From: Holophagales bacterium
Lineage (GTDB): Bacteria; Acidobacteriota; Thermoanaerobaculia; Multivoradales; Multivoraceae
Assembly (NCBI GenBank): GCA_009845425.1
Contig: VXZQ01000014.1
Coordinates: 333,783-397,782, forward strand
Reading direction: 5' to 3'
Length of the DNA stretch: 64,000 nucleotides
Shown here piece by piece: positions 24,602 through 40,006 of the stretch (position 1 is the first letter of the stretch; every line of letters starts with the position of its first letter). The notes below the pieces were generated by a model, which was given only the letters and a program-made list of their open reading frames with translations, had not been told where the DNA came from and did no database searches. Both the position numbers and the translations under genes were made by a program.

Positions 24602-25813
24602 TCAGCTCGCCCATTTGCGGGCCGCGGCCAGAGCTTCCTCGGACGGCGGAATGGTAGGCCGTAGCCGTGACGTCGTGTTGAACGGTTCCGTGTCGATCTC
24701 GTCGAGGCGTACGTCGCCGGCGAGGACCGCCCGCTTCCACGCCTGCTGCTCGTCTTCGCGGGCCTGAAACTCGGGCATCACCTCGCGGGCGAACAGCTCC
24801 AGGCTGGTCATGATGTCCTCGTGCGTGTTCTTGCCGGCCTGGTTGAGCAGGATGACCTGGTCGACGTGGGCCCGTTCCAGTTCCCGCAGGCGCTCGCGGA
24901 TCGTCTCCGGCGAGCCGATCAGTTCGCTGTCCGAGCGCTTCCGGCCCTCGGGGGTCTGCTTCCACTCCTGGTAGCGCTCCCAGAAGTTGTTCGTACCGGG
25001 TTCGAAGGGGCCTTCCTTGTTGTAGAGCTGGAGGGCGAACTGGAAGAAAGTCCAGCCGTCGGCCTTCCGCTGCGCTTCCTCGTCGGTCGGCGCGCACATG
25101 AAGCCGCTGACCGTGGCCAGGTTCGGGTTCGTCCGGTAGTCGCAGAGCTTGCGCTGGTCGCTTACGAACGTGTTGTAGTAGGCGTTGACCCAGGCCCGGG
25201 CGGAGTCGAGATCGGCGAACTTGAAGCACAGCGCGCCCATGCCGCGGTGCGCGGCGTAACGAATCGTGTCGAGCTGCGAACAGGCGACCCAGAGCGGCGG
25301 GTGAGGCCGCTGCAGCGGCTTCGGGATCACGTTGCGGAGCGGGAAGTCGAAGTAGTGGCCGTGGTACTCCCAGCCCTCGTTCCAGAACATCGGCAGGCAG
25401 GCCTGGACGGCCTCTTCCCAGACGATCCGCTTGTCGCGGAAGCTGCGCCCGAAGGGATGTAGCTCGGTGACGCTCGAACCCTCGCCCAGGCCGAGTTCGA
25501 CCCGGCCGTTCGAGACCAGGTCGAGGGTCGAGACCCGTTCGGCGACCCTGGCCGGGTGGTTCGTCGTCAACTGGACGATGCCGTGGCCAAGGCGGATGTT
25601 CTTCGTCCGCTGCGACGCCGCGGCCAGGAACACTTCGGGCGCCGAGCTGTGGGAGTACTCCTCCAGGAAGTGGTGCTCCACTTCCCAGGCGTAGTCGTAC
25701 CCAAGCCGGTCCGCGAGTTCGATCTGGTCCAGAGAGTTCTGAAGCAGCCGGTGCTCCGAGTCCGGTACCCAGGGCTTCGGTAGCTGATGCTCGTAGAAGA
25801 TGCCGAATTTCAT
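24602..25813 (-). CDS. LLM-class flavin-dependent oxidoreductase
   Basis: A 403-residue luciferase-like TIM barrel. MKFGIFYEHQLPKPW is the N-terminal strand. WEVEHHFLEEYSHSSAPEVFLAAASQRT and RLGHGIVQLTTNHPARVAERVSTLDLVSNGRVELGLGEG are highly characteristic of bacterial LLM monooxygenases that use FMNH2 or F420. The ATG at 25813 is chosen because the sequence before it does not resemble the family. The substrate is unknown. It is divergent from the pterin dehydratase gene, with 66 bp between. Confidence 0.9.
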   Translation of the reverse strand: MKFGIFYEHQLPKPWVPDSEHRLLQNSLDQIELADRLGYDYAWEVEHHFLEEYSHSSAPEVFLAAASQRTKNIRLGHGIVQLTTNHPARVAERVSTLDLVSNGRVELGLGEGSSVTELHPFGRSFRDKRIVWEEAVQACLPMFWNEGWEYHGHYFDFPLRNVIPKPLQRPHPPLWVACSQLDTIRYAAHRGMGALCFKFADLDSARAWVNAYYNTFVSDQRKLCDYRTNPNLATVSGFMCAPTDEEAQRKADGWTFFQFALQLYNKEGPFEPGTNNFWERYQEWKQTPEGRKRSDSELIGSPETIRERLRELERAHVDQVILLNQAGKNTHEDIMTSLELFAREVMPEFQAREDEQQAWKRAVLAGDVRLDEIDTEPFNTTSRLRPTIPPSEEALAAARKWAS

Positions 25814-25879: not shown

Positions 25880-26161
25880 ATGGCGGCGATGACGGCGGAC
25901 GAGATTCGGAGCGCGTGCGGCGAGTTGAACGGCTGGGAGGCGGATCTGGAAGCACCTGCGATATCGAGGGATTACCAGTTCCCGACCTTTCCGGCGGCGG
26001 TGCGTTTCGTCGACTTCGTGGCTGAGCTGGCGGAAGCGGCGGATCATCACCCGGACATCGACATCCGCTACAACCGGGTTCGGCTGACCCTCAGCACGCA
26101 TTCGGCCGGCGGCGTGACGGAGAAGGACTTCGCGCTCGCCCGTGCGATCGACCATTGCTGA
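25880..26161 (+). CDS. Pterin-4a-carbinolamine dehydratase
   Basis: A 93-residue protein, the usual PCD length. It has the family core in order: the Trp of NGWEAD, the [19 protein letters not shown] helix, then [21 protein letters not shown] with the catalytic His pair, and [15 protein letters not shown]. It dehydrates 4a-hydroxytetrahydropterin formed by aromatic amino acid hydroxylases; such a hydroxylase is not in the window, and some bacterial members have other roles in molybdopterin metabolism. A second ATG three codons on is also possible. The next gene begins 19 bp later. Confidence 0.92.
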
Positions 26162-26180
26162 TTCGCTAGCGCGCCAGCCC

Positions 26181-27032
26181 ATGACTCAGCCTTTGCAAGC
26201 GGCGACGCCGCGGCCTGCTCCAGAGGCGCCCTACTACCTGCCGGTCAGCAACGAGGTCGACCTGTTTCTCGCTGCCTATCGGGCGCGCATGCCGGTGCTG
26301 CTCAAGGGACCGACGGGGTGCGGCAAGACGCGGTTTCTCGAGCACATGACGCATCGCCTCTATCGGGGAGGCGATGCGGGCGCACGTACGGGGATCGAGA
26401 CGCCTCTCGTCACGGTCGCCTGCCACGAGGACCTGACGGCGACCGATCTGGTCGGCCGCTACCTGCTCGAAGGCGACGATACGGTGTGGATGGACGGTCC
26501 GCTGACCCGGGCGGTGCGCGACGGGTCGATCTGCTACCTGGATGAGATCGTCGAGGCGCGCAAGGACACGACGGTGCTGATCCACGCGCTGACCGACCAC
26601 CGCCGCATCCTTCCGATCGAGAAGCGGGGCGAAATCCTGCCGGCGCACCCGGACTTCCTGCTCGTGCTGTCGTACAACCCGGGCTACCAGAGCGTCGCCA
26701 AGGACCTGAAGCCGAGCACGCGCCAGCGTTTCGTGGCGCTCGAGTTCGACTACCCGCCGCCCGAGGTTGAAGCGGAGATCATCGCGCACGAAGCGGGGAT
26801 CGACCTGACCCTGGCGCGGGACCTCGCCGAACTCGGCAAGCGCATCCGCAACCTTCACCACCGCGGCTTCGACGAAGGGGTCAGCACCCGCCTGCTCATC
26901 TACACGGCGCAGTTGATCGCCGGCGGCATCGGCGTACGCGAGGCCTGCGTCGCCGCGATCTGCCGGGCGATCACCGACGACGACGAGGTCCAGCGCGCGG
27001 TGACCGAGGTCGCAACGACGCTGTTGCCTTGA
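26181..27032 (+). CDS. CbbQ/NirQ/NorQ-type AAA+ ATPase (MoxR group)
   Basis: A 283-residue ATPase. Walker A is GPTGCGKT at 43-50, Walker B is SICYLDEI with Asp121 and Glu122, and sensor 1 lies in [10 protein letters not shown]. The MoxR-family features DLVGRYLL and [12 protein letters not shown] are present, and the C-terminal CbbQ_C-like lid follows. CbbQ with CbbO remodels inhibited Rubisco, and NorQ with NorD matures nitric oxide reductase by metal insertion. Here it is paired with the CbbO/NorD-like gene by a 4-bp overlap. No rbcLS or norBC is seen in the window, so the client protein is unknown. Confidence 0.9.
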
Positions 27033-29275
27033 CCGCGGTTGCCCTCGACGACGTCGCCCGCGTCCTCGAGATCTACGTCGAGGCGATGCTGGCGCGCCCG
27101 GCCGAGGTCCGGCCGCTCGCGGATCTACAAGCCGGGGACAGATCGGGTGCTGGGCATCTCGACCTGGAAGGCGCCGCGGCCGCCGGCCGGCCCACGACCG
27201 ACGGTGCGGCCTTCTACCTGCCGGAGCGAATCGACCGGTTGCCGGACAGCTACGGCAACTTCATGGTCTACCGGATGGCCGTGCTGCACCAGTTGGGCGG
27301 CGTGCTGTTCGGCACCTACAGGCGCGGTCCGCTCCGGTTCGCCGACTTCTTTGCGGGATTCGATGAGCCCGCTCTCGCCCGGGCGCTGTTTGCGCGCCTC
27401 GAAGGGGCGCGAATCGACGCCGCTCTGGCGCGCGTCTTCCGAGGCGTGGGCCGCGATTTGCTGCGGCTGATCGACGATGCGCTCGATTCGTCGCTGAGCC
27501 CGGCATCGAGGCCGCCCGCGCGCCGGCAGCCGCGCGAAGGGGCCCTGTTCGACCTGGCGCGGGCGCTGCTCGTCGAACAGCGCTCCCGATTGGAAGACCC
27601 AGCAGACACGGATGCGGCGAGCCGGATGTCGGTGCGCCGGCCTTCTGGCCGGCCTTCCGGGAACGCGGACCGAGGCTCGCGATTCGCAGAAGCCGCGACG
27701 CTCCTGGAGCCCGGCGCCACCGTCGATCACACCCTCCGCGCTGTGCGCGCGCTCTATCCCGAGTTCGCCGCCCTGCGCGCGGCTTCCTCCCTGTCCGGGC
27801 CGGCCCCGGCCGCCGCCGACGGCGCACCTCGGGATCGCGGCACCGACCTGGATCCCGAAGCCGAAGCCCAATCCCTCGACGTGCCGGCGCCCGCGCACCA
27901 CGGGGACCCCGCACCGGAGCGAGTCGAGCTGCGCCGCGAGTGGCAGGAGCTCGCATCCGAAGTCGAAGTGCGGGACGACGTGGAACCGGGACCGATTGCC
28001 GCTGGCCTGATGGAACAACTACAGGTGGACGAGTTGGGCGTACTCAGCCTGCAGGACGGCGACCTCTCGGGCACCGCCGGCCTGCCGCTGACCGACCTCG
28101 ACATCACGGGGGCGATCGAGGCCGAAGGGGGCGACGAGGAGGGGACGCCGATCGAAGTCGATCCCGAGGAACTGGCGGCCCGCCTCGAGGAACTCTCGAA
28201 GCGGCTGGAGCGCGAACTGGCGGAGGCCGGGCTCGACCGCGAGCAGGTCTTCTACTACGACGAGTGGGACCATGAGCTGGCCGGCTACCGCCGCCGTTGG
28301 TGCCATCTGCGGGAGAAGGCGATCGAACCGCTGGACCCGCCCTCGAACGGCTCCGCGGCTCCACCGGAACGGTTTGTCGACGAGACGCGTCGCCACCACG
28401 CCGACCTGCTGCGGCGCGTCAGGAAGCAGTTCGAGCTGCTCAAGCCGGAGGAGTTCCGGCGCATGCGGCGCCTGATCGAGGGCGAGGAGCTCGATCTCGA
28501 CCGGGTGGTCGAAGCTCATGTCGACCGCCGTGCCGGCCGGCCGCCGGACGGCGCGGTCTACATGAGCCGCCGGCGCCAGCACCGGGATGTGGCGGCTGCC
28601 TTCCTGCTCGACATGAGCGCCTCGACCGACGCGGAGGCGCCGGTGGAAGAGCCTGAACCGGCGTCAGGCCGGGAGCCGGAGCCGGAGTACGTCGGCGTCT
28701 TCGACGACTTCGACTGGCCCGACAACCCGCAGCCGATTCCCCCGGGGCGCCGGGTGATCGACATCGAGAAGGAGTCCCTGGTCCTGATGGCCGACGCGCT
28801 CGAGACCCTGGGCGACGACTACGCGATCTACGGGTTCTCCGGCTTCGGCCGCAAGGAGGTCGAGTTCTTCGTCGCCAAGGAGTTCGACGATGACTTCGAC
28901 CGCGAGGCCGAGGACCGGATCGCCGCGATGGAGCCGAAGCGCAGCACCCGGATGGGACCTGCCATTCGCCACGCCGCCGCCAAGCTCGCCGAGCGCGAAG
29001 CGAAGGTCAAGGTTCTGCTCATCCTCTCCGACGGCTACCCCCAGGACTTCGACTACGGCAGCGACCGGGCATCCCGCGTCTACGGCATCCGCGACACGAT
29101 GGTCGCGCTCCGCGAGACCGAACGCCAGGGCATCTCCACCTTCTGCATCACCGTCGACCCCGCCGGCCACGACTACCTGCGCGAGATGTGCCCCGAGCGT
29201 CGCTACCTCGTCATCGACGAGATCGCCGCCCTGCCGAGCCAGTTGCCGAAGGTGTACCGCGGGCTGACGGCGTAG
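27029..29275 (+). CDS. CbbO/NorD-like VWA-domain partner of the AAA+ ATPase
   Basis: A 748-residue protein. The N-terminal helical half includes [24 protein letters not shown], as in NorD/CbbO proteins, which use it to grip the client. A variable acidic linker spans about 180-350. The C-terminal VWA domain has MIDAS D528-x-S530-x-S532 (LLDMSAST), the Thr in KRSTRMG and [12 protein letters not shown]. The end, [24 protein letters not shown], is conserved in the family. Translation starts at a TTG overlapping the cbbQ-like stop (TTGA), so expression is coupled. A GCCGGCC hairpin sits inside the linker at 27636-27653. It ends one base before a convergent gene. Confidence 0.88.
27636..27653. repeat. 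7-bp stem, TTCT-loop hairpin inside a coding region (GCCGGCC-TTCT-GGCCGGC)
   Basis: A perfect inverted repeat with the same TTCT loop as the intergenic hairpin at 20255-20276 and the same left flank gtcggtgcgccggcc. It encodes part of a low-complexity stretch ([10 protein letters not shown]) in the linker of the VWA protein and keeps the frame. It may be a dispersed element tolerated in a non-conserved linker. Confidence 0.45.
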
Positions 29276-29276
29276 A

Positions 29277-30683
29277 TCAGCGGGTCAGCACACCCAACGG
29301 CGGCGACCCGTCCGGACTCTCGAAGTCCACGTCGAGCAGCATCGCGATGAGGTCGGCGATGTCCGTCAGCCCCATGCGGTGAACGGTGCGGCCGACTTCG
29401 AAGCCGGCTCCCCAGCCGACGAAGCCAGTCAGAATCTCTGGGAAGTCGGTAGGGAAGTGGCCGTGGGCGCCGCCGTCGGTGGGGCGCACGGCGTCGCCGG
29501 AGGCGTCGGCGCCGAAACTGGTGCCGAGGGCGCCGGCCAGGGCGAAGGGGGCGCTCGGGCTGGCGCCTATCTCGTCGAGTTCGTCGCGTTCGACGATGCG
29601 GAACAGCCGGCCGATGGGCTGAGGCAGGTCGGCGAGGATGGCGCGGACCGCCTTCAGCGCCTCTTCGTCCGCTGCGTCTCGCAGGTGAAGGAAGGTAGAG
29701 CCGCCGCTCGGGTGGAAGGTGGCGCGCCACTCACCGCGGTCGGGCTCGGTGCCGTGGAGGCCGGCTTCTGCCAGCCAGACGTTGGGCATCACCTGGGTGT
29801 GGAGGTCGACGAAGCCGTGGTCGCCGGTGATGACGAAGGCGGTGCGGTCCAGGATGCCGGCGCGTTCCGCGGCGTCGCGGACCGCGCCGATGGCCCGGTC
29901 GGCGGCGCCGACGGCGCGCCGGATGCGATCCGACTCCCGGCCGTGCGCGTGCTGGGCGGAATCGGTCGTGATCAGGTGCAGAGCCAGCAGGGCCGGTCGG
30001 TGGGTTTCCAGGACGTAGGCAGCCATCACTCCGGTCGTGTCGTCACGCGTGATGTAGGCGGCGGAGTAGTTGCGCAGGTTGAGGCGGCCGGTTGCCTCCC
30101 GCTCCAGTTCCTGCCACAGGCCAGGCGAAGTGCCCTCGCGCATCGGCAGCAGGCGGTCGACGTTGGGGTCGAGGGAGTAGACCTCCGGCACGAGCCAGTC
30201 GACCGGCGCGCCGACCGTCACCGGCCAGGAGATCGCCGCGGTCCGCCGGCCGGCCCCGCGCACGGCATCCCAGAGCGTGGGGACCTGGATCGCCGATTCG
30301 TGCCAGTACCACTCTCCGCTCTGACCCTCGGGTTCGAAGGGCCGGTTGTAGTAGATCCCGTGCCGGGCGGGCAACGCGCCGGTGACGATCGTCGTGTGCG
30401 ACGGGTAGGTGACCGTGGGAAACACCCCGCGCACGCCCTCGGCGTGGGCGCCGTCTCGCGCCATCTGCTGCATGTTCGCCGCGGGCCAGGAGGAGCCGGG
30501 GAGGTAGAAGTCCGGCCGGAGGCCGTCGACCGAGACGAGGACGACGTGGTCGGCACGCGGCTCCGTCTGTGCCGCCAGCGGACTGGTGGCCAGCAAGAGG
30601 GAGCAGAGGACGGTGCCGGCGACGGCGGGGAGACCCGGCAGCCCGCGCCGCAGACTGCCGCCCGCGGATGCCGGTCCCACCAC
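29277..30683 (-). CDS. ENPP-type nucleotide pyrophosphatase/phosphodiesterase, secreted
   Basis: A 468-residue alkaline-phosphatase-superfamily enzyme with a signal peptide (VAGTVLCSLLLATSPLAAQ). The NPP signatures are LVSVDGLRPDFY (metal Asp53), VFPTVTYPSHTTIVTG (nucleophile Thr, residue 90 or 92), ARHGIYYN, then ITTDSAQHAHG and VITGDHGFVD for the second zinc site, and a late His. Family members cleave nucleotide or lipid phosphodiesters outside the cytoplasm. It starts with GTG-GTG at 30683. It is 6 bp downstream of the R2lox gene on the same strand, so both may share a transcript. Its stop is one base from the convergent VWA gene. Confidence 0.87.
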   Translation of the reverse strand: MVGPASAGGSLRRGLPGLPAVAGTVLCSLLLATSPLAAQTEPRADHVVLVSVDGLRPDFYLPGSSWPAANMQQMARDGAHAEGVRGVFPTVTYPSHTTIVTGALPARHGIYYNRPFEPEGQSGEWYWHESAIQVPTLWDAVRGAGRRTAAISWPVTVGAPVDWLVPEVYSLDPNVDRLLPMREGTSPGLWQELEREATGRLNLRNYSAAYITRDDTTGVMAAYVLETHRPALLALHLITTDSAQHAHGRESDRIRRAVGAADRAIGAVRDAAERAGILDRTAFVITGDHGFVDLHTQVMPNVWLAEAGLHGTEPDRGEWRATFHPSGGSTFLHLRDAADEEALKAVRAILADLPQPIGRLFRIVERDELDEIGASPSAPFALAGALGTSFGADASGDAVRPTDGGAHGHFPTDFPEILTGFVGWGAGFEVGRTVHRMGLTDIADLIAMLLDVDFESPDGSPPLGVLTR

Positions 30684-30689
30684 GCGCTC

Positions 30690-31517
30690 CTAGACGGCAG
30701 CCGCGAGCCGGCCGTCGTAGATGCTCTGCCTCATCTCTTCCAGCTTGTCGAGGTAGAGCTGCCTGTACTCGTCGTAGTCGAGGTCGAACGGCGCCTGACC
30801 GCGTTCGAAGCCGGCGAAGGTCTGGTTCGGGCCGTCCTCCGCGAACGGGCGCATCGCCTCGACCTGCGCCTCGAACTGGTCGACCAGGTGCGGATGCTCG
30901 GCGAGCAGGCGCTGCAGGATGTACACGCCGAAACCGATGTGGCGGGCCTCGTCGCGCTGGATCAGGCGAATCCCGCGGTTGAGCGCGGGCAACTTGCCCG
31001 TGCGCTCGAAGATCTTGTAGTAGATCGGGTAGCTGGCTTCAGCGCCGACGCCCTCGACGTAGAAGTGGTACAGCATGATGGCGTTCAGCAGCGCCTCGGG
31101 GCTGTCGTCCTCGAACAGCGCGCGCATCGTCGCCGGCAGCCGCGTCGAGAACATGTCGCCATGGAGGTTGGGGTAGGGGATGTCGACTCCGAACCGGCCC
31201 GGCAGCGCCTCGATCAACCAGGTCTCGAAGAACTGGACGTGGCGGGCCTCCTCGTACATCTGCGCGGTGACGTACATCTCGTCTTCCAGACGGCCGTCCT
31301 GGCGGAAGCGGAACTGGAGCGGCGCGAGTTCGTGGGTCACGCCGCGCTCGCCGACCCGGAAGCCGGAAATCAGGCGGATCAGCAGATTCCGCTCGTCGTC
31401 CGAGAAGGACATCCAGTCAGAGCGCTCCTGAGAGAAGTCGATGTCGGCCGGGTTCCACGAACGCTCGTGGGAAGCCGTGAAGAGTCGTATTGGCAGCGAC
31501 GAACTGTCGAACGGCAT
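30690..31517 (-). CDS. R2-like ligand-binding oxidase (R2lox, Mn/Fe)
   Basis: A 275-residue ferritin-like four-helix protein. Compared with the numbering I recall for Geobacillus R2loxI, a constant offset of 12 puts every key residue in place: metal ligands Glu57, Glu90, His93, Glu155, Glu190 and His193 (in GERGV, YEEARHV, YHFYVEG and RDEARHI), and the two residues that form the unusual ether crosslink, Val60 and Tyr150. R2lox binds a long-chain fatty acid at a Mn/Fe cofactor and performs two-electron oxidations; its true substrate is unknown. An aggaggt site lies just before the ATG. The absence of an nrdE/nrdA partner also argues against a ribonucleotide reductase role. Confidence 0.9.
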   Translation of the reverse strand: MPFDSSSLPIRLFTASHERSWNPADIDFSQERSDWMSFSDDERNLLIRLISGFRVGERGVTHELAPLQFRFRQDGRLEDEMYVTAQMYEEARHVQFFETWLIEALPGRFGVDIPYPNLHGDMFSTRLPATMRALFEDDSPEALLNAIMLYHFYVEGVGAEASYPIYYKIFERTGKLPALNRGIRLIQRDEARHIGFGVYILQRLLAEHPHLVDQFEAQVEAMRPFAEDGPNQTFAGFERGQAPFDLDYDEYRQLYLDKLEEMRQSIYDGRLAAAV

Positions 31518-31579
31518 GGCGAACCTCCTTGACGAGTCGATTGTAGCCCGCCCTGACTGGTTGGCGGGCGCCGGAGCCG

Positions 31580-32806
31580 TCAGTGTCGGCGGAAGGCTCG
31601 GACCAGCAGCAGCATGGCGACGGCCATGAGCAGCGATCCGGCCAGGAGTGGGGCGCCTGGCAACTCGAACGGAGCGGCGTCGGATGTGAAGTAGCTGAAC
31701 ACGCCGCTGGTGAAGGCGAGCGGCGCCGCGATCGCGGACAGGCTCATCAGCGACGTGAGCGCCCCCTGGATCTTCCCCTGCTCGGTGGGCGCCACCGTGC
31801 CGGCGATGATCGCCTGGACCGCCGGTCCGGCGATGCCCCCCAGCGATCCCGCGAAGATCACGGTGACGAGGATCGGGCCGTTCGGCGCGAGGCCGTAGCC
31901 GGCGAAGGCCAGCGTTCCGATGCCGAAGCCGACGAGTACCGCCCGTCGCTCGCCCAGCCAGGTGACCGCGGGTCGCACCAGGAAGCCCTGGACCAGGGCC
32001 GCCGCAACACCGACGGCTGCCAGCGCGAGGCCGTTCTGGAACTCGTTCCAGCCATAGCGGTAGCTCGTGTAGAGCACCCAGGACGTCTCCAGGCCGCGTT
32101 GTGCGAGCGCCAGCAGCAGGAAGGCGACCGCCAGGCTGGCGACCAGGGGGTACGTGCGGAGGTGCACGATGCTCGAGACCGGATTCGCCTTGCCGAGTGA
32201 AAAGGCGCTCCGGTTCTCCGGCGCCAGGGACTCGGGCAGCACGAGGAAGCCGTAGAGCGAGTTCAGGAGGCAGAGACCGGCCGCGGCGAAGAAGGGCAGC
32301 CGCAGGTCGATGCCGCCGAGCAGACCTCCGAAGATCGGTCCCAGGATGAACCCGACGCCGAAGGCCACGTTGACAAGGCCGTAGTTGCGGGCGCGGGTTT
32401 CCGGCGTCGAGATGTCGGCGATGTAGGCGTTCGCCGTCGTGATGCTGGCGCCCATCACGCCGGCGACGATCCTGCCGGCGAACAGCCAGCCGAGCGATGG
32501 CGAGAAGCCCATGATCAGGTAGTCCACGCCCAGACCGAACATGGAGAGCAGGAGGATGCGCCGGCGGCCGAAGCGATCGGACAGCGCACCGAGGATCGGG
32601 GCGCAGACGAACTGCGCCACGGCGTAGCAGGCCGCGATCGCGCCCACAGCAACGGCGGCCGACGAGGTGTCGCCGCCTCTGAACTGTTCGACGAGCTCGG
32701 GGAAGACCGGGATGATGAGCCCGACCCCCAGCATGTCGAGCAGGATCACGGCGAAGATGAAGCCGACGCCGGCCTGGCGGCGGGGAGGTGCGTCTGGTTG
32801 AGGCAT
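31580..32806 (-). CDS. MFS exporter, TetA/TCR-like group
   Basis: A 408-residue, 12-helix major facilitator. Motif A is GALSDRFGRRRILLLSMFG between helices 2 and 3. Helix 4-5 has RIVAGVMGASITTANAYIADIS, and GPIFGGLLGGIDLRLPFFAAAGLCLLN marks the antiporter motif C (helix 5). These are typical of TetA/multidrug H+ antiporters. The ATG at 32806 follows the family pattern; in-frame sequence further upstream has no membrane segment. The substrate cannot be told. It lies 62 bp upstream of R2lox on the same strand. Confidence 0.88.
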   Translation of the reverse strand: MPQPDAPPRRQAGVGFIFAVILLDMLGVGLIIPVFPELVEQFRGGDTSSAAVAVGAIAACYAVAQFVCAPILGALSDRFGRRRILLLSMFGLGVDYLIMGFSPSLGWLFAGRIVAGVMGASITTANAYIADISTPETRARNYGLVNVAFGVGFILGPIFGGLLGGIDLRLPFFAAAGLCLLNSLYGFLVLPESLAPENRSAFSLGKANPVSSIVHLRTYPLVASLAVAFLLLALAQRGLETSWVLYTSYRYGWNEFQNGLALAAVGVAAALVQGFLVRPAVTWLGERRAVLVGFGIGTLAFAGYGLAPNGPILVTVIFAGSLGGIAGPAVQAIIAGTVAPTEQGKIQGALTSLMSLSAIAAPLAFTSGVFSYFTSDAAPFELPGAPLLAGSLLMAVAMLLLVRAFRRH

Positions 32807-32857
32807 GGTCAGGGCGTCGGGAGAGTAGTACGGCTGGCAGGCGTTAGAGTTGACGCC

Positions 32858-33334
32858 ATGAGTCACATGGTCGGAGTATCCCGGTCGAGTCGGCGGCACG
32901 CCTTGATGGCAATGGCCCTGGTCGGAGCGCTCGCGGCCTGTGGTCCGTCGGACGGACCGCCGCCGGAGCCTCAACCGGACGTGGACACATTGCGCGCGTC
33001 TTTCATCGAGCAGATCGAATCGATCGACCTCGTGGCGGGCCTCGAAACCGACGGCGACGAGGTTCGCTTCGTTCGTCCCGACGGCTCGGGCGAGGACGTC
33101 GAGTGGCGCGTGCGGATCGACTCGCTCGAAGTGGAGTCCGGGGAAAGCGAGGGGGCGCAGGTGCTAGGTCGCGTGCGGTCGGCCTGGAGTGCCAACGGCC
33201 GCCCGATCACGGTCCAGCAGGGCCCTGCGGGGCTGGTGACCGACATGCCTCAATGGCTCCTTGACGCCGGTCTGGCGCCCGCTGAATGCTGGGCGTTGTG
33301 GGACGAAGAAGCGAAGGCGTGGGGCTGGACGTGA
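32858..33334 (+). CDS. Small lipoprotein of unknown function
   Basis: A 158-residue protein with a signal peptide ending in lipobox LAAC (Cys28), then an acidic, Pro-rich start and a soluble domain (VAGLETDGDEVRFVRPDGSGEDVEWRV). I recognise no family. The mature part alternates short strands and turns and has two late tryptophans (AECWALWDEEAKAWGW). The ATG at 32858 is chosen; another lies three codons on. It is divergent from the MFS gene and 84 bp upstream of another secreted-protein gene on the same strand. Confidence 0.65.
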   Translation: MSHMVGVSRSSRRHALMAMALVGALAACGPSDGPPPEPQPDVDTLRASFIEQIESIDLVAGLETDGDEVRFVRPDGSGEDVEWRVRIDSLEVESGESEGAQVLGRVRSAWSANGRPITVQQGPAGLVTDMPQWLLDAGLAPAECWALWDEEAKAWGWT

Positions 33335-33418
33335 CGCGGACCGCTGTTGATCCGCAGCTATGATCGAAGGACGCTGTTTTGCATTCCTGGGTTCACCCGC
33401 TCTTGGGAGGGTAGTTGG

Positions 33419-34514: not shown

Positions 34515-35192
34515 CTAGCCGCTGAGCATCCTCTCCCGTCGCTCGGCGCGGGTGAACGTGAGGGCGACGATCGCCGCGATCGCGAGGGCGGTGCCGATGC
34601 GGTTCTGAACGTTCAGCGCGAGCATTTGCGCCGCGTCCGCCTCTTCCACGGCGAGCGGGTTCCAGAACGGTGAGACGCGGAACGAACCGAACAGCCGGTT
34701 GAGGCCGAGGACGCCGATCGTGGCCAGGGAGCCGGCCACATCGCTGCGGAACAGGGTCGCGAAGCCCATGGCGGCAACGAGGTAGAACACGACTCCCTGC
34801 GTTGCTCCGTACAGGCCCTGAAGAACCGGGAAGGCCGTGAAGAAGGCATAGGTCACGCTGGCGAGGAGGACCAGGCTGACCAGGAGCATCAAGACCGCGG
34901 CGGCGAGCTTGCCGAGCCAGACCCGATGGGCGCCTCCGGGCACGGTGTAGGCGATCTCGAGGCTGTGCTGGTCGAGCTCCCCGGTGATGATTCGGCCGCC
35001 CAGGAAGATGGCGAGCACGGCTACCGGCACACCGATCAGGCTGTTCTGCGCCGCCACCGGTTCCAGGGCAGGCCGCATGCCGGCTACCAGCATGAGCGCC
35101 TGTACTGCGAGCCACACCAGGGGCAGCAACGGCAGCATCCAGTAGCGGCGTCCGCCAAGCAACACCGCCGAAGTGCGAAGCAGCGTAATCAT
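34515..35192 (-). CDS. ABC-2-type permease subunit, last gene of the hybrid operon
   Basis: A 225-residue protein with about six membrane helices (LLPLVWLAVQALMLVAGM, IGVPVAVLAIFLGGRIITGELDQ, KLAAAVLMLLVSLVLLASVTY and others). GRIITGELDQHSLEIAYTVPGGAHRVWLGKL is the amphipathic coupling region of ABC-2-type exporters. The ATG at 35192 overlaps the stop of the RND-ABC fusion gene by 4 bp (ATGA), so it is translationally coupled and is the natural membrane partner of the fused ATPase. The substrate is unknown. Confidence 0.82.
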   Translation of the reverse strand: MITLLRTSAVLLGGRRYWMLPLLPLVWLAVQALMLVAGMRPALEPVAAQNSLIGVPVAVLAIFLGGRIITGELDQHSLEIAYTVPGGAHRVWLGKLAAAVLMLLVSLVLLASVTYAFFTAFPVLQGLYGATQGVVFYLVAAMGFATLFRSDVAGSLATIGVLGLNRLFGSFRVSPFWNPLAVEEADAAQMLALNVQNRIGTALAIAAIVALTFTRAERRERMLSG

Positions 35193-38100
35193 GCCGGCGC
35201 CTCGGTGCGCGCCGCCCGCGCGAGCCACAGATAGCCGTCCTCCAGCGTCGGCTCGGCGGGGGCGGCCCGCTCGTCCGGGCGGCCGCTGGCGAGCACACGA
35301 AGGCTGCTCGTGCCGTCCGGTTCGGGCTTCTGGTCGGCCAGCACCGCGCCTTCGGGCAGCTCAGGCACTTCTTCTTCATCGGCCGTTCGCCACGACCACA
35401 CCCGGCCCTCGGCTTCGCGCGACAGCGCGGCCGGATGGCCGTCGAACACCATTCGACCGCGGCTCAACACCAGGACGCGGTCGCACGCCACCGCCACATC
35501 TTCGACGACATGGGTCGAGAAGAGCACGATCCGGTCCTTCGCGAGCCGTGAGAGCAGGTTGCGAAAGCGGACCCGCTCGCGGGGGTCGAGGCCGACGGTC
35601 GGTTCGTCGACGACGATGATCGGAGGCAACCGGAGCAGCGTGCGCGCCACCGCCACGCGCTGTCGCATGCCACCCGAGTAGCCGCCGATCTGCTCGTCGG
35701 CCCGCTCGTCGAGCCCGACCTCACGCAGCAGCGTCGAGATGCGATCGGTCCGTTCCGACCTGTCGATCTGGTAGAGGGCGGCGTAGTACTCGAGGTACTG
35801 GCGGGCGGTCAGCCGGGGCGGCAGGCCGGCGTCCTGAGGCAGGTAGCCGACGTAGCGCGCGAGGCGCGTTCGGACACTGAGCAACGGTACGCCGCCGAGC
35901 GTGATCCGGCCCCGCGTCGAGTCGAGAATGCCGGTCAATTGCCGGAGCAGCGTCGTCTTGCCGGCGCCGTTCGGGCCGAGGACTCCGACCATGCCGCGTT
36001 CGACCTCGAAGCTCACTGCAGCCAGGGCCCTGACGGTGTCGATCGGCAGGTCCAGGCCGAACACCTTCGTGGCCGCGGCGCGCCAGAGGCGGAGGATCTG
36101 ACCTCGCCAGCCGCGCGCGCGCCGGCGGCGGGAAGTCCGCCGTTCCCGGCGCATCGTCTCCAGCCGCGCCGTACGGCGTCCGAGCTGAACCAACAGGATG
36201 ATCGTGGAAACGATGCCGAGCGCGATGAACCCTCCCACTTCAGGATCGGCGACCATCTCCGGGACGACCAGCCAGGCGAGAAGCGCCCAGGGCAGCAGGG
36301 CCGTCAGCACGCCCTCGATGCCGCCCGGTGCGACGCGACCGAGATCGTCGGCGCGGCCGCGGGCGCGCCGGATCTCGCGCAGCAACCGGGAGCCGATCAA
36401 CAGGATGGCGATCAGGACGCCGAGGATGATCAGGCCGCCGCGCATCCGCGCTGCCAGGGCGATGGCGCCGGCGAACAGGAGGAGAAGAGGCAGCAGCCGG
36501 TCGCGTGCGTCGGCCGGTTCGAAAGCCTGGCCTCCCTGAGCGGCGACCCGTCTGGCGAAGTCGGCCGTAGCCCGCAGCGCCCGGCGCACCGGTCCGGGAA
36601 GGCCGTACGTCTTGCGCAGGTGGCGGACCACGAGTCTGGGCGGGCCGGCGGCCGTCTCCGGTTCTGGCGACGGCGGTTTCGGTAGCAGCCATACAGTGAG
36701 GCCGAGCAACGCCCCGGCGATCAGCACCGTGGTCGTGACCTGCCAGAACATCGACTCGATCACGCCGAACGCGAACAGAGGCGCCGTAGTGGCGATGACC
36801 GCGCCGAGCCAGGTCAGTACGACCCAGGGGCCGACGCGGCTGAACAGTTCGTCGAGGCGTCGCAGGAAGACGAAGCCGACCGGGATGACGAGCAACGTCA
36901 GCAGGGTCGCGGTCAGCAGGCCACCGATCACGAGCGTCGCAAAGGGCGGCCAGATCTCGTTCTCGCGACCCGTGGCGATGGACAGGGGCGCCAGAGCCGC
37001 GACCGTCGTTGCGGAAGTCATCAGCACCGGGCGCGCCCGCTCGCGCACCGCGGCGAGGGCGGCCGCGCCGGCGCTCCAGCCGGCGCCCAGCGTGTGCTGC
37101 TGCATTCGGTCGACGAGCAGGACGGCCGGGTTGATCGCCAATCCCAGCAGGACGAGCGCACCGAGCAGAGCCATCGCCTCGAAGCCGATGCCGGTCAGCA
37201 CAAGAGCCCACACCGAACCGAGCAGCGCGAGGGGAAGGGCGATCAGGACAAGGATCGGCAGCGTCATCGACTCGAACGTCACCGCCAGGACGAGGAAGAC
37301 CAGCAGAACGACCGGCACAACGATCCGCCGGAACCAGTTCGTGCTCTCCCCGGAGCGGTCGAGCGCGATCGTCGTGCCCGCGGGCCGGTGGATGCTCGCG
37401 ATCGCTTCGTCCAGGCTGCGGTCGAAGGCGTCGCGCGCGGGTCCCCGTCGCGGCACGTCCGGTGACAGGGTGTAGAAGACCTCCCGTTCGCGGACGCCGT
37501 TGTGGTGGGTGATGACCGGGGAGGGCGGGGCTTGCCGCACTTGCGCCAGGGCGGCGACCGGCAGGACACCGGCCCCGGTCGAGACGCGGAGCCGTTGCAG
37601 CCCGCTGAGCGACACGTCGCGGTCGACGCCGCTGCCGTTTGATGACTCGGCCCCGTCGCGCCGGTCCTCCAGCCGTTGCACGACGATAGGCAGCTCTCTC
37701 CCGCTGGCGAGCGGATAACCGGTGTTGATCCTGGTCCCCTCGCGGCCGGCCAGATTCAGCATCGGCAGTACTTCGTCCAGGAGCACGCCGAACGTGTCGA
37801 AGGCGCGCCGATTCGGACTCACGTGGAGTTCGTCGGGCCCCGGGCGTACTGCCGGATAGGCGCTCGCGATGCCCTCGATCTCCCGCAGCCGCTCGGTGAC
37901 CTGGGCCGCGAGGTCGGTCAACTGCTCGTTGTCGTTGCCGGAAAGGACGACCCGGGATGGGCCGCCGCCGAGCAGTTCCTGGGCGCCGCCGCCTCTGCCG
38001 CCGCCGCCTCCTCCACGTCCTCCCGGGCCTTCACCCTCGCCCGGATTGAGGAGTTCGGCTCCGGCGCGCCGGGCCGGCGGACGCAGCAGTTGCCGTACGC

Positions 38101-40006
38101 GTCTGGCCGTCAGCCCCTCGGGTCGCTCGTCTTCATCCACCAGGTGGACGGTCAGCGACCCTCCCTCTTCCCGGATCATGCTCTCGACGCGGTCGACGCC
38201 CTCGACTTCCTGAATCGTCTCGAGACGTTCGAAGACGCGGACAGCCGAGTCGAGGCTCCCGCGGCCCTCGGGCAGGCGGACGGAGAGTTGGACCTGGTCG
38301 GCGATCGGCGCCTGGCCGGGGCCGCTCGAAGCGACGAGGAACAGGGCGGCGATGACGCTCAGGACGACGGCGGTGACGACGCCCGTGATCCAGCTCGCCG
38401 GCCGGCGCAGGGCGGAGGCGAGCACGCCCGCGAACAGAATCCGGGTGGGGTCGGGCGGCACCAGTCCGCCGAAGCGTTCGCGGCGTCGACGCAGCTTGGT
38501 CAACCGCCGAATCGCGGCCGGTGCGGCGAGGTGCCGCGCCAGCAGGGGCACCAGTCCGATCGCCACCAGGAGCGAGCCGAACAGCGGCAGCAGGATGGCC
38601 AGCGACAGGAGCGCGATCAGGTTCTGGATCAGGGACGACTCCAGGTCGACGATGACGGCGGGCAGGAAGACGATCGCCGTCGTGACGGAAGCGGCGACGA
38701 TGGCGCGGCCCGTGCGGCGGATGCCCCCGGCCGCGGCGTCGTCGGGACTCCTGCCGCGTTCCAGGCGGCGCTGGACGGACTCGAACACGACGACGCTGTT
38801 GTCCACGATGAGTCCGACGCCAATGGCCAGCCCGAAGAGCGTGAACAGGTTGAGCGACAGACCGGCCACGTAGAGGAAGGAGAGAGCTACTGCCAGACTG
38901 ACCGGCACGGCGACCGCGACCACGGCCACCGCACGCCACTGACGGAGGAAGAGGAACAGGACCAGGAGCGCGATCCCGAAACCCGAGAGACCGAGGTTCC
39001 GCAGTCGGTCGATCTGCGTCTCGACCAGGTCGGCGGCGTCGAAGCTGGGAAACAGGCGGATGCCGAGCGGAGTGAACTCCTCGTTGATCTCATCGATCCG
39101 GCGACGCAGATCGCGACCGAGTCGCACCAGATTGGCGCCTTCCTCCTGGAACACCATGACGCCGACCGACGGCTCACCGTTGACCCGGTACAGCATCTGG
39201 CGGCGGCCGGAGCCGATCTCGACGTCGGCTACGTGGCGGACCAGGACAGGAAGGTCGGGGACCACCCGTACGTCGCCCATGGACACCGGGCCGGCTGGCC
39301 GGCCGTCGAGCATCACCGCCGTCCGCCCTGCCTCGTCCTCCAGGCTGCCGAGGTAGCGGAGGCGTCCCGCCGCACCGCGCACCGCCGCGGTTACCTGCTC
39401 CGTCGTCACGCCGAGCGCGGCGCAGCGGTTCGGGTCGACCCACACGGTCAACTGGCGCGAGGCGCCGCCGCCCAGCATCGCCTGGCTGACTCCCGGCACC
39501 GCGGCCAGCCGGGGCGTGATCATTTCGTCAACCAGGTCGTACAGTGCGTCCTCGTCGTCGGAACCGGTCACCTGCAGGATCATGGCGAAGCTCGAGAAGA
39601 CACTGGTGTCGTCGGCCTGCACGTTGAGGAAGGCGTCGCGCGGCTGGGTTCGGGCGAGATCGGCGGCGATGCGGCGCATCTCGAGTTCGCGCACCTTGAG
39701 GTCGACGCCGCGTTCGAAGCGGACGGTGAAGCTGCCGGCGGCGCCGCTGACCTCGCCCCAGGTCTCGGCCACCCGGGGCAGCGTGCGGACCCGGGCTTCG
39801 AGCGGCATGAGGATCTCCCGCTCGATCGTCTCCGGCTCGCTGCCCGGGCGGAAGAAGCTGACGTAGAGCGAGTCGCCCGTGAGAGCAGGGAACAGTTCGA
39901 CCGGCAGTCTCTGCCACGCGAACCCGCCGAGCATGACGAGTGCGACGAAGAACATCGTCACCGCCAGGGGGCGGCGGATGGCGAGCGTGTCGAGACCGGC
40001 TCTCAC
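35189..40006 (-). CDS. RND efflux pump fused to an ABC ATPase that is split by a four-helix membrane insert
   Basis: One uninterrupted 1605-residue frame. Residues 1-1050 are an AcrB/HAE1-like RND pump: TM1 12-30, PVELFPALTGDSLYV, TM4 GLAIGVGLIVDNSVVVFESV (Asp402-Asn403), TM10 GLAINPAVLLVD. Two further helices (about 1060-1107) lead to RLVVRHLRKTYG (1124-1135), the first strand and A-loop Tyr of an ABC ATPase. Helices at about 1171-1187, 1190-1206, 1232-1251 and 1258-1275 follow, then a basic linker. The ATPase resumes at VRALAAVSFEVERG: Walker A 1344-1352, Q-loop Gln1391, SGGM signature 1444-1447, Walker B Asp1467-Glu1468, His1499. All ATP motifs are intact. The TM10 Lys of AcrB is absent. 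A poly-Gly tract lies at 662-674. GTG start; 13 bp after the RND1 stop. Confidence 0.92.
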   Translation of the reverse strand: MRAGLDTLAIRRPLAVTMFFVALVMLGGFAWQRLPVELFPALTGDSLYVSFFRPGSEPETIEREILMPLEARVRTLPRVAETWGEVSGAAGSFTVRFERGVDLKVRELEMRRIAADLARTQPRDAFLNVQADDTSVFSSFAMILQVTGSDDEDALYDLVDEMITPRLAAVPGVSQAMLGGGASRQLTVWVDPNRCAALGVTTEQVTAAVRGAAGRLRYLGSLEDEAGRTAVMLDGRPAGPVSMGDVRVVPDLPVLVRHVADVEIGSGRRQMLYRVNGEPSVGVMVFQEEGANLVRLGRDLRRRIDEINEEFTPLGIRLFPSFDAADLVETQIDRLRNLGLSGFGIALLVLFLFLRQWRAVAVVAVAVPVSLAVALSFLYVAGLSLNLFTLFGLAIGVGLIVDNSVVVFESVQRRLERGRSPDDAAAGGIRRTGRAIVAASVTTAIVFLPAVIVDLESSLIQNLIALLSLAILLPLFGSLLVAIGLVPLLARHLAAPAAIRRLTKLRRRRERFGGLVPPDPTRILFAGVLASALRRPASWITGVVTAVVLSVIAALFLVASSGPGQAPIADQVQLSVRLPEGRGSLDSAVRVFERLETIQEVEGVDRVESMIREEGGSLTVHLVDEDERPEGLTARRVRQLLRPPARRAGAELLNPGEGEGPGGRGGGGGGRGGGAQELLGGGPSRVVLSGNDNEQLTDLAAQVTERLREIEGIASAYPAVRPGPDELHVSPNRRAFDTFGVLLDEVLPMLNLAGREGTRINTGYPLASGRELPIVVQRLEDRRDGAESSNGSGVDRDVSLSGLQRLRVSTGAGVLPVAALAQVRQAPPSPVITHHNGVREREVFYTLSPDVPRRGPARDAFDRSLDEAIASIHRPAGTTIALDRSGESTNWFRRIVVPVVLLVFLVLAVTFESMTLPILVLIALPLALLGSVWALVLTGIGFEAMALLGALVLLGLAINPAVLLVDRMQQHTLGAGWSAGAAALAAVRERARPVLMTSATTVAALAPLSIATGRENEIWPPFATLVIGGLLTATLLTLLVIPVGFVFLRRLDELFSRVGPWVVLTWLGAVIATTAPLFAFGVIESMFWQVTTTVLIAGALLGLTVWLLPKPPSPEPETAAGPPRLVVRHLRKTYGLPGPVRRALRATADFARRVAAQGGQAFEPADARDRLLPLLLLFAGAIALAARMRGGLIILGVLIAILLIGSRLLREIRRARGRADDLGRVAPGGIEGVLTALLPWALLAWLVVPEMVADPEVGGFIALGIVSTIILLVQLGRRTARLETMRRERRTSRRRRARGWRGQILRLWRAAATKVFGLDLPIDTVRALAAVSFEVERGMVGVLGPNGAGKTTLLRQLTGILDSTRGRITLGGVPLLSVRTRLARYVGYLPQDAGLPPRLTARQYLEYYAALYQIDRSERTDRISTLLREVGLDERADEQIGGYSGGMRQRVAVARTLLRLPPIIVVDEPTVGLDPRERVRFRNLLSRLAKDRIVLFSTHVVEDVAVACDRVLVLSRGRMVFDGHPAALSREAEGRVWSWRTADEEEVPELPEGAVLADQKPEPDGTSSLRVLASGRPDERAAPAEPTLEDGYLWLARAARTEAPA

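Follow-up and report, generated by a model that had tools for sequence, protein, structure and literature searches.

An R2lox protein from an apparently carrier-free branch in two classes of Acidobacteriota

Structures of R2lox proteins have been available since 2009 (3EE4), and the physiological reaction of the family is still disputed. The reaction documented in structural papers is self-processing (PMC6399176, PMC6060897), and in PMC4118035 the fatty acid that co-purifies with R2lox is described as not being turned over. GkR2loxI of Geobacillus kaustophilus (4HR0), associated with the GK2771 gene cluster, has been reported as an alkane hydroxylase from experiments with crude lysates, and an E202A/H205A mutant retained much of the activity (PMC10867098). 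Because the work relied on crude lysates and the double ligand mutant was still quite active, we regard the alkane hydroxylase claim as suggestive.

Here we describe an R2lox gene from a Holophagales bacterium, carried on a 64,000-nucleotide stretch of contig VXZQ01000014.1 that was analysed as a whole and is referred to below as the window.

Comparison with characterised R2lox proteins

The window protein has in common with GkR2loxI the metal ligands, the residues V72 and Y162, A171, Y175 and G68 (GkR2loxI numbering) and the fold, at 37% identity over 193 residues and 31% in a structural alignment. At 275 residues it is shorter than GkR2loxI (~302) at both the N- and C-terminal ends, and the two proteins differ at R58/E70, A65/L77, Q86/F98, H151/N163 and G158/L170 (window/GkR2loxI). 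An alkane-type gene cluster was not recognised around the window gene. The M. tuberculosis protein (3EE4/4AC8) has a similar fold (VIA-align Z 26.0, rmsd 2.5-2.6 Å) and is 34% identical to the window protein; lipid-enzyme clusters lie beside its close plasmid relatives, but the window is without them. S. acidocaldarius R2loxII (7QBK) also resembles the window protein in fold (Z 25.5) at 28% identity. The halobacterial proteins and GKP26, a distant R2lox from plasmid pHTA426, which were compared alongside it, are on a branch separate from the window's clade. Within the halobacterial/GKP26 tree group, Q86 is common to all five rows and A65 to four of the five (7QBK lies outside the residue alignment).

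The earlier note, made from the letters of the DNA, identified the gene as R2lox and placed all six metal ligands plus V60 and Y150 in register with GkR2loxI at a constant offset of 12. Both claims were borne out; the gene, for which the note names no strand, is on the minus strand. In a phmmer search against PDB sequences, residues 15-225 of the window protein aligned without a gap to residues 41-251 of the 4hr0 chain (E 8.8e-44), and the offset holds for the published GkR2loxI residues E69, V72, E102, H105, Y162, E167, E202 and H205 (PMC10867098). The window residues A159 and Y163 likewise lie 12 below A171, a position that is Ala in R2lox and Phe across the RNR R2 groups (PMC6399176), and Y175, whose role is described in PMC6060897 (Table 1).

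Table 1. Coordinates of the R2lox gene, its key codons and its immediate neighbours in the window
Feature	Coordinates	Strand	Basis or remark
Type I phosphodiesterase / nucleotide pyrophosphatase-like protein (PDE), downstream gene	29277..30683	-	export signal by eye
R2lox gene, 275 aa	30690..31517	-	ATG start
Metal ligand H193 codon (Gk H205, site 2)	30939..30941	-	alignment
Metal ligand E190 codon (Gk E202, bridging/site 2)	30948..30950	-	alignment
Y163 codon (Gk Y175, hydrogen bond to Mn1 water)	31029..31031	-	alignment
A159 codon (Gk A171, lining of fatty-acid tunnel; Phe in RNR R2)	31041..31043	-	alignment
Metal ligand E155 codon (Gk E167, site 2)	31053..31055	-	alignment
Cross-link residue Y150 codon (Gk Y162)	31068..31070	-	alignment
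Metal ligand H93 codon (Gk H105, site 1)	31239..31241	-	alignment
Metal ligand E90 codon (Gk E102, bridging)	31248..31250	-	alignment
Cross-link residue V60 codon (Gk V72)	31338..31340	-	alignment
Metal ligand E57 codon (Gk E69, site 1)	31347..31349	-	alignment
Probable ribosome-binding site AGGAGG	31524..31529	-	6 nt ahead of R2lox ATG
MFS transporter (Tet-like, below curated cut-offs), upstream gene	31580..32806	-	profile matches

The ranking among PDB sequences and the predicted fold agree with the residues. The NCBIfam R2lox model matched the window protein with an E-value of 7.2e-57; for NF006200 it scored 193 bits against a curated cut-off of 194, which was exceeded in 8 of the 20 genomes of its genus that have R2lox. 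The phmmer ranking began with GkR2loxI, followed by the M. tuberculosis, S. erythraea and both S. acidocaldarius R2lox chains, all above RNR R2. An AF2 model, built on an alignment (A2) of 20 window-clade sequences from which the frameshifted L057 was left out, reached a mean pLDDT of 72.3 and a pTM of 0.73, with residues 55-73, E57 and V60 among them, below 50. Searched with this model, Foldseek returned R2lox at ranks 1-34 and VIA-align at ranks 1-27 (Z 26.0-23.3), RNR R2 rows following from Z 22.0.

Among 41 aligned rows, Y150 is present in 40 (Phe in L093) and A159 and Y163 in 39 each, and these three together with V60 are kept across the ten aligned rows of the window's clade. The RNR-type rows L093, L209 and L210 have Asp at 57, Tyr at 97 and Phe at both 150 and 159. 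Because these three also have Val at position 60, V60 alone is not diagnostic; in the rows aligned here it is Y150 together with A159 that separates R2lox from RNR-type proteins. Membership of the window protein in R2lox is firm, and by analogy with characterised homologs it is likely to form a one-time cross-link between Val60 and Tyr150.

An SCP2-like partner in relatives

R2lox proteins of the same order outside the window's genus are mostly 33-40% identical to the window protein. Acidobacterial proteins coupled to SCP2, also at 33-40% identity, have the metal and cross-link residues of the window protein, but their R2lox is adjacent or fused to an SCP2-like (lipid-carrier) domain, whereas none was seen in the window's genus. 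At 18 of 21 non-genus Acidobacteriota loci this domain is encoded directly upstream on the same strand, the exceptions being G140, G092 and G023 (first contig, 3.7 kb); the count leaves out G070, where R2lox is cut by a contig end, a second G023 gene, and the divergent L108 and L109, which have no SCP2 by profile (L109 has Phe at 159). SCP2 and R2lox share one ORF in L095, L096, L101, L103, L104 and L111, from five genera and three families, with linkers of 21-49 residues. Where the two are separate, the R2lox start nearest to the SCP2 stop ranges from overlapping (4 bp, ATGA, in L097; 46 bp, with TTG, in L098) to ~100 bp after it (L110). The Pfam SCP2 cut-off was passed by 12 of 15 acidobacterial proteins scanned (L100, L121 and L131 were left out), the fused L095, L101 and L111 scoring below it; the ORFs L098:7208-8563 and L100:6557-7501, which proved to be other genes, are outside this count. 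When 21 loci were compared, without L101 and L106, no other neighbour family occurred in more than three, although the neighbour lists are approximate, having been made with a crude ORF picker that missed the SCP2 ORF in 8 of 20 SCP2-context stretches.

The SCP2 profile behind these locus counts was made from five acidobacterial and two actinobacterial copies, and these seven match it by construction. Across the class, this SCP2 type was detected in 20 of 21 non-genus R2lox genomes (weakly in G023) versus 34 of 106 R2lox-less ones, a count for which the profile came from R2lox-linked copies and at most 28 candidates were scored per genome. It was found in none of the 21 genomes of the window's genus, where 28 of the 41-69 first-look candidates were scored in the g1 genomes listed, and the profile had no match in the window or in the fetched flanks of L032-L057. 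SCP2 of this type is therefore likely to be absent from the genus. Two further SCP2 genes, which lie elsewhere in the window's own genome on different contigs, resemble the profile only weakly (E 0.013 and 0.016).

In G031 and G039, an SCP2 gene without R2lox lies between a DsbA-like and an epimerase gene, which are 65-89% identical to their orthologs on either side of the SCP2-R2lox pair in G058 and G045. Because SCP2 occurs in 34 of 106 R2lox-less genomes and alone at the G031/G039 site, the pair is not obligatory. The loci L151 and L155, set against L094 and L098, display the same DsbA-like/SCP2/epimerase order without and with R2lox inserted after SCP2 and ahead of the epimerase gene, a natural case of presence and absence. 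At three R2lox-less loci of one family (L149, L153 and L165; f12), the same SCP2 type is near a phasin-like gene, named by eye. A second, divergent R2lox-like gene of G023 (L211, contig C1226) is 31% identical and is followed immediately by a stretch with weak similarity to SCP2. A literature search, with most subscription papers outside its coverage, found nothing joining R2lox with SCP2 or sterol carrier proteins; such a link may still have been published.

Outside Acidobacteriota, eight actinobacterial plasmid records contain close relatives of a Rhodococcus opacus protein, and five were read. Their clusters encode an NDMA-dependent alcohol dehydrogenase (5/5), a fatty acid-CoA ligase (4/5), ferredoxin with an FAD reductase (3/5) and an aldehyde dehydrogenase (2/5), and resemble the GK2771 cluster as described in PMC10867098. 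SCP2 is annotated in two of the five, and in two an SCP2-like gene falls below the Pfam cut-off (18.8 versus 21.3 bits), with one protein accession in both. The acidobacterial SCP2 profile did not match three actinobacterial SCP2 proteins. Because the actinobacterial R2lox rows stand beside the fused acidobacterial rows in a 41-row tree, the pairing may also have arisen once, with SCP2 being replaced later. The haloarchaeal R2lox-like gene L171 has beta-oxidation (fatty-acid oxidation) genes around it, and no fatty-acid oxidation gene set was seen at the plasmid loci L092, L093 and GKP26. Directly upstream of GKP26 is an MFS gene, whose product is 25% identical to the window MFS protein over 170 residues, and downstream of it lies a gene for an adenylate-forming enzyme. 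None of the loci read for haloarchaea, Bdellovibrio and GKP26 has an annotated SCP2 gene.

Neighbours, distribution and history of the window's branch

The earlier note set the window gene between an MFS exporter and a secreted phosphodiesterase 6 bp downstream, suggested that this setting could point to lipid-related chemistry, and raised the question whether these neighbours travel with R2lox. The 6-bp gap holds in the window with a GTG start at 30683, but at seven of the 17 genus loci the aligned portion of the phosphodiesterase starts at least about 50 bp beyond R2lox. PDE is next to R2lox at all 17 fetched genus loci and MFS at 15 of them (missing at L043 and L057); because a wider block of neighbours is kept in the genus too, where contigs allow, we regard this as a conserved region and not a travelling module. 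At nine Bryobacterales loci, with fetched flanks of up to 10 kb, none of 13 other window genes was found; five of the nine have one common context (GlmS, aminotransferase and GH32-like genes, named by eye) and the other four differ. PDE orthologs 55-62% identical to the window protein occur in other genera (G021, G022, G025, G052 and G046), on stretches of 4.7-18 kb that contain neither R2lox nor MFS. MFS and PDE were therefore rejected as travelling partners, PDE occurring without R2lox in sister genera and linkage being lacking in all nine Bryobacterales loci; with linkage limited to the genus, lipid chemistry is not supported by these neighbours. A scan of positions 29100-33400 returned one promoter-like and no terminator-like site and was uninformative. 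The genes next to R2lox in the window include none that was recognised as encoding a reductase, another electron donor or an alcohol/aldehyde dehydrogenase.

Other parts of the window also drew attention. An ORF of 1605 residues (35189-40006, minus strand) combines an AcrB-type RND permease (ACR_tran) with an ABC ATPase domain, an unusual join that has full-length matches (1605-1608 aligned residues) in L033, L036, L041, L044, L055 and L057. A MoxR-like pair conserved in the genus, at 26142-29275, consists of a CbbQ/NorQ-type AAA ATPase and, after it, a VWA-like protein (23.7 bits for VWA, cut-off 23.8). A luciferase-like flavin monooxygenase (Bac_luciferase; 24602-25813, minus strand) is 93-100% identical in the genus loci that reach it.

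Among 147 genomes searched, 21 belong to the window's own genus (g1) and 20 of these have R2lox; in 19 it is 91-100% identical, and in G015 the gene is broken into different frames. A true absence in the remaining genome, G020, was rejected, its contig C206 starting inside the neighbouring PDE gene. A pseudogene in G015 was also rejected: R2lox, PDE and the VWA gene are all frame-broken there, so that sequencing indels are likelier. Six short peptide patterns, able to detect close relatives only, were scanned against an 84,980-species collection and gave 26 loci with Acidobacteriota titles throughout, 17 of the genus type and nine from Bryobacterales/Terriglobia (66-73% identical). The nine are missing from the class-wide search and so belong to another class; among 120 genomes around and including one of them, matches at E <= 1e-15 occurred in nine, the same nine.

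Our reading of the isolate prefixes RHO, COS and Plut in the record names, as opposed to any recorded habitat, suggests sponge and coral hosts. Rhopaloeides and Coscinoderma are among the sponge species in PMC8163846, and a search of the literature on sponges and Acidobacteriota found no paper naming this genus together with R2lox.

A branch supported at 100/100 separates the window's clade from the other rows both in the 41-row tree, with 10 of its sequences, and in a 28-row tree with 17. The 41-row tree puts it outside the R2loxI group of GkR2loxI, Acidobacteriota and Actinomycetota at 99/92; because the program flags long branches, this deep placement is unsure. The same tree nests the genus inside Bryobacterales at 98/92, but with more clade rows Bryobacterales form one side of a branch (69/81 in the 28-row tree), and the nesting was dropped as not reproduced. 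Given the patchy spread over two classes of Acidobacteriota, horizontal transfer is the simplest reading, and the branch has probably been transferred between them.

Thirty alignment columns set the clade apart, R58, A65, Q86, H151 and A161 among them. A clustering of these residues near the metal site was rejected: 14 of the 30 are at most 8 residues away from a key position, which is not significant in a hypergeometric test (p 0.067). Ratios of dN/dS between the window R2lox and 11 genus loci are 0.013-0.119, with 0.09-0.275 for PDE (11 loci) and 0.047-0.126 for MFS (10 loci); judged by these ratios, the window R2lox is under purifying selection.

Proposed function and alternative readings

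By sequence, the window protein shows a complete dimetal-carboxylate site, the V60/Y150 pair and a small alanine that opens the tunnel. On balance we favour a reading in which the gene encodes an R2lox with an Mn/Fe or Fe/Fe site that forms the cross-link and oxidises a hydrophobic substrate, and which belongs to a carrier-free, probably transferred branch. Following the characterised homologs, Mn/Fe (or Fe/Fe) would load into the helical bundle, and the loaded site would react with O2, the Val-Tyr ether link forming once during maturation. A hydrophobic, lipid-like compound bound in the tunnel would then undergo a two-electron oxidation, probably a hydroxylation, at the matured site, and a general ferredoxin or flavoprotein would supply the electrons. 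Many relatives probably rely on an SCP2-type carrier, either fused to R2lox or encoded by the gene just before it, to deliver the substrate; in the window's carrier-free branch the substrate may differ.

That the protein works instead as the R2 subunit of a class I ribonucleotide reductase is extremely unlikely. It does match Pfam PF00268 (59.8 bits) and has the W21 and D189 positions in common with the RNR-like row L093, but its A159 and F97 stand against Phe and Tyr in L093, L209 and L210, and R2lox entries outrank RNR R2 in both sequence and fold searches. Furthermore, the sole large-subunit match in its own genome (98% complete) is a B12-dependent class II NrdJ (960 bits versus a cut-off of 859) with the class II N-terminal domain PF08471. 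Class II NrdJ works without an R2 subunit, and the R2 role was rejected because only this class was found. A search of the own genome with the window R2lox gave no second relative at E <= 0.001; many order relatives have a second, weaker match (about 1e-5 to 1e-8) that is presumably their own R2, and the weak matches in G111 and G129 are RNR-type by residues. A reading that we consider unlikely, though less so, takes the cross-linked protein as the end product, a one-shot lipid-binding or oxygen/metal-sensing protein without turnover. The documented self-processing (PMC6399176, PMC6060897) and the fatty acid described as not turned over (PMC4118035) agree with it, and the window gene has no recognised electron donor next to it; yet the actinobacterial clusters supply an alcohol dehydrogenase (5/5) and ferredoxin with a reductase (3/5), which a one-shot protein would not need.

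The pairing of SCP2 with R2lox in relatives might also be an inherited linkage without functional meaning. Most cases fall within one order and therefore are not independent, and in G031 and G039 the corresponding site retains SCP2 without R2lox. However, the outer neighbours of the pairs vary between groups, the pair also occurs in another class (G154, L105), the two genes overlap by 4 bp (ATGA) in L097 and form one ORF in six genomes of five genera and three families, and SCP2 genes recur in the actinobacterial clusters, with a weak SCP2-like stretch downstream of the second G023 R2lox; we find a meaningless linkage doubtful. More improbable still is a single functional operon in which MFS, R2lox and PDE make and export a modified lipid or phosphodiester. 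The three genes lie on the same strand with gaps of 62 bp and 6 bp, the genus keeps PDE at 17/17 loci and MFS at 15/17, and the distant GKP26 also has an MFS gene upstream; but the wider block is equally kept, neither MFS nor PDE is linked to R2lox in the nine Bryobacterales loci or in the sister-genus stretches, and the GKP26-side MFS is only 25% identical to that of the window (170 residues).

Oxidation of a hydrophobic substrate is accordingly the best-supported function by analogy, and its support comes from the SCP2 fusions and lipid-enzyme clusters of relatives, not from the window's own neighbours. Because this SCP2 type was not seen among the candidates scored in the genus and the adjacent genes include no recognised reductase or dehydrogenase, the substrate argument leans on relatives that are 33-40% identical. 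Those carriers and clusters still make lipid-related chemistry the better guess. The window lineage is a well-supported and apparently partnerless branch common to two Acidobacteriota classes.

A broader proposal, which we offer tentatively, is that R2lox and an SCP2 carrier compose a two-part lipid oxygenase, in which R2lox would do the oxidising and the carrier would bring a water-insoluble substrate to its tunnel. The pairing recurs in Acidobacteriota and Actinomycetota, whose SCP2 types show no profile match to one another, and it would have come about through separate recruitment or replacement. The window protein would then represent a third lineage, free of the carrier and altered in residues close to the metal site, which may have passed between invertebrate symbionts of two classes and act on a habitat-specific substrate. 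Because fused SCP2-R2lox proteins occur naturally, the question of the R2lox substrate is testable, and the window's carrier-free branch provides a matched contrast to them.
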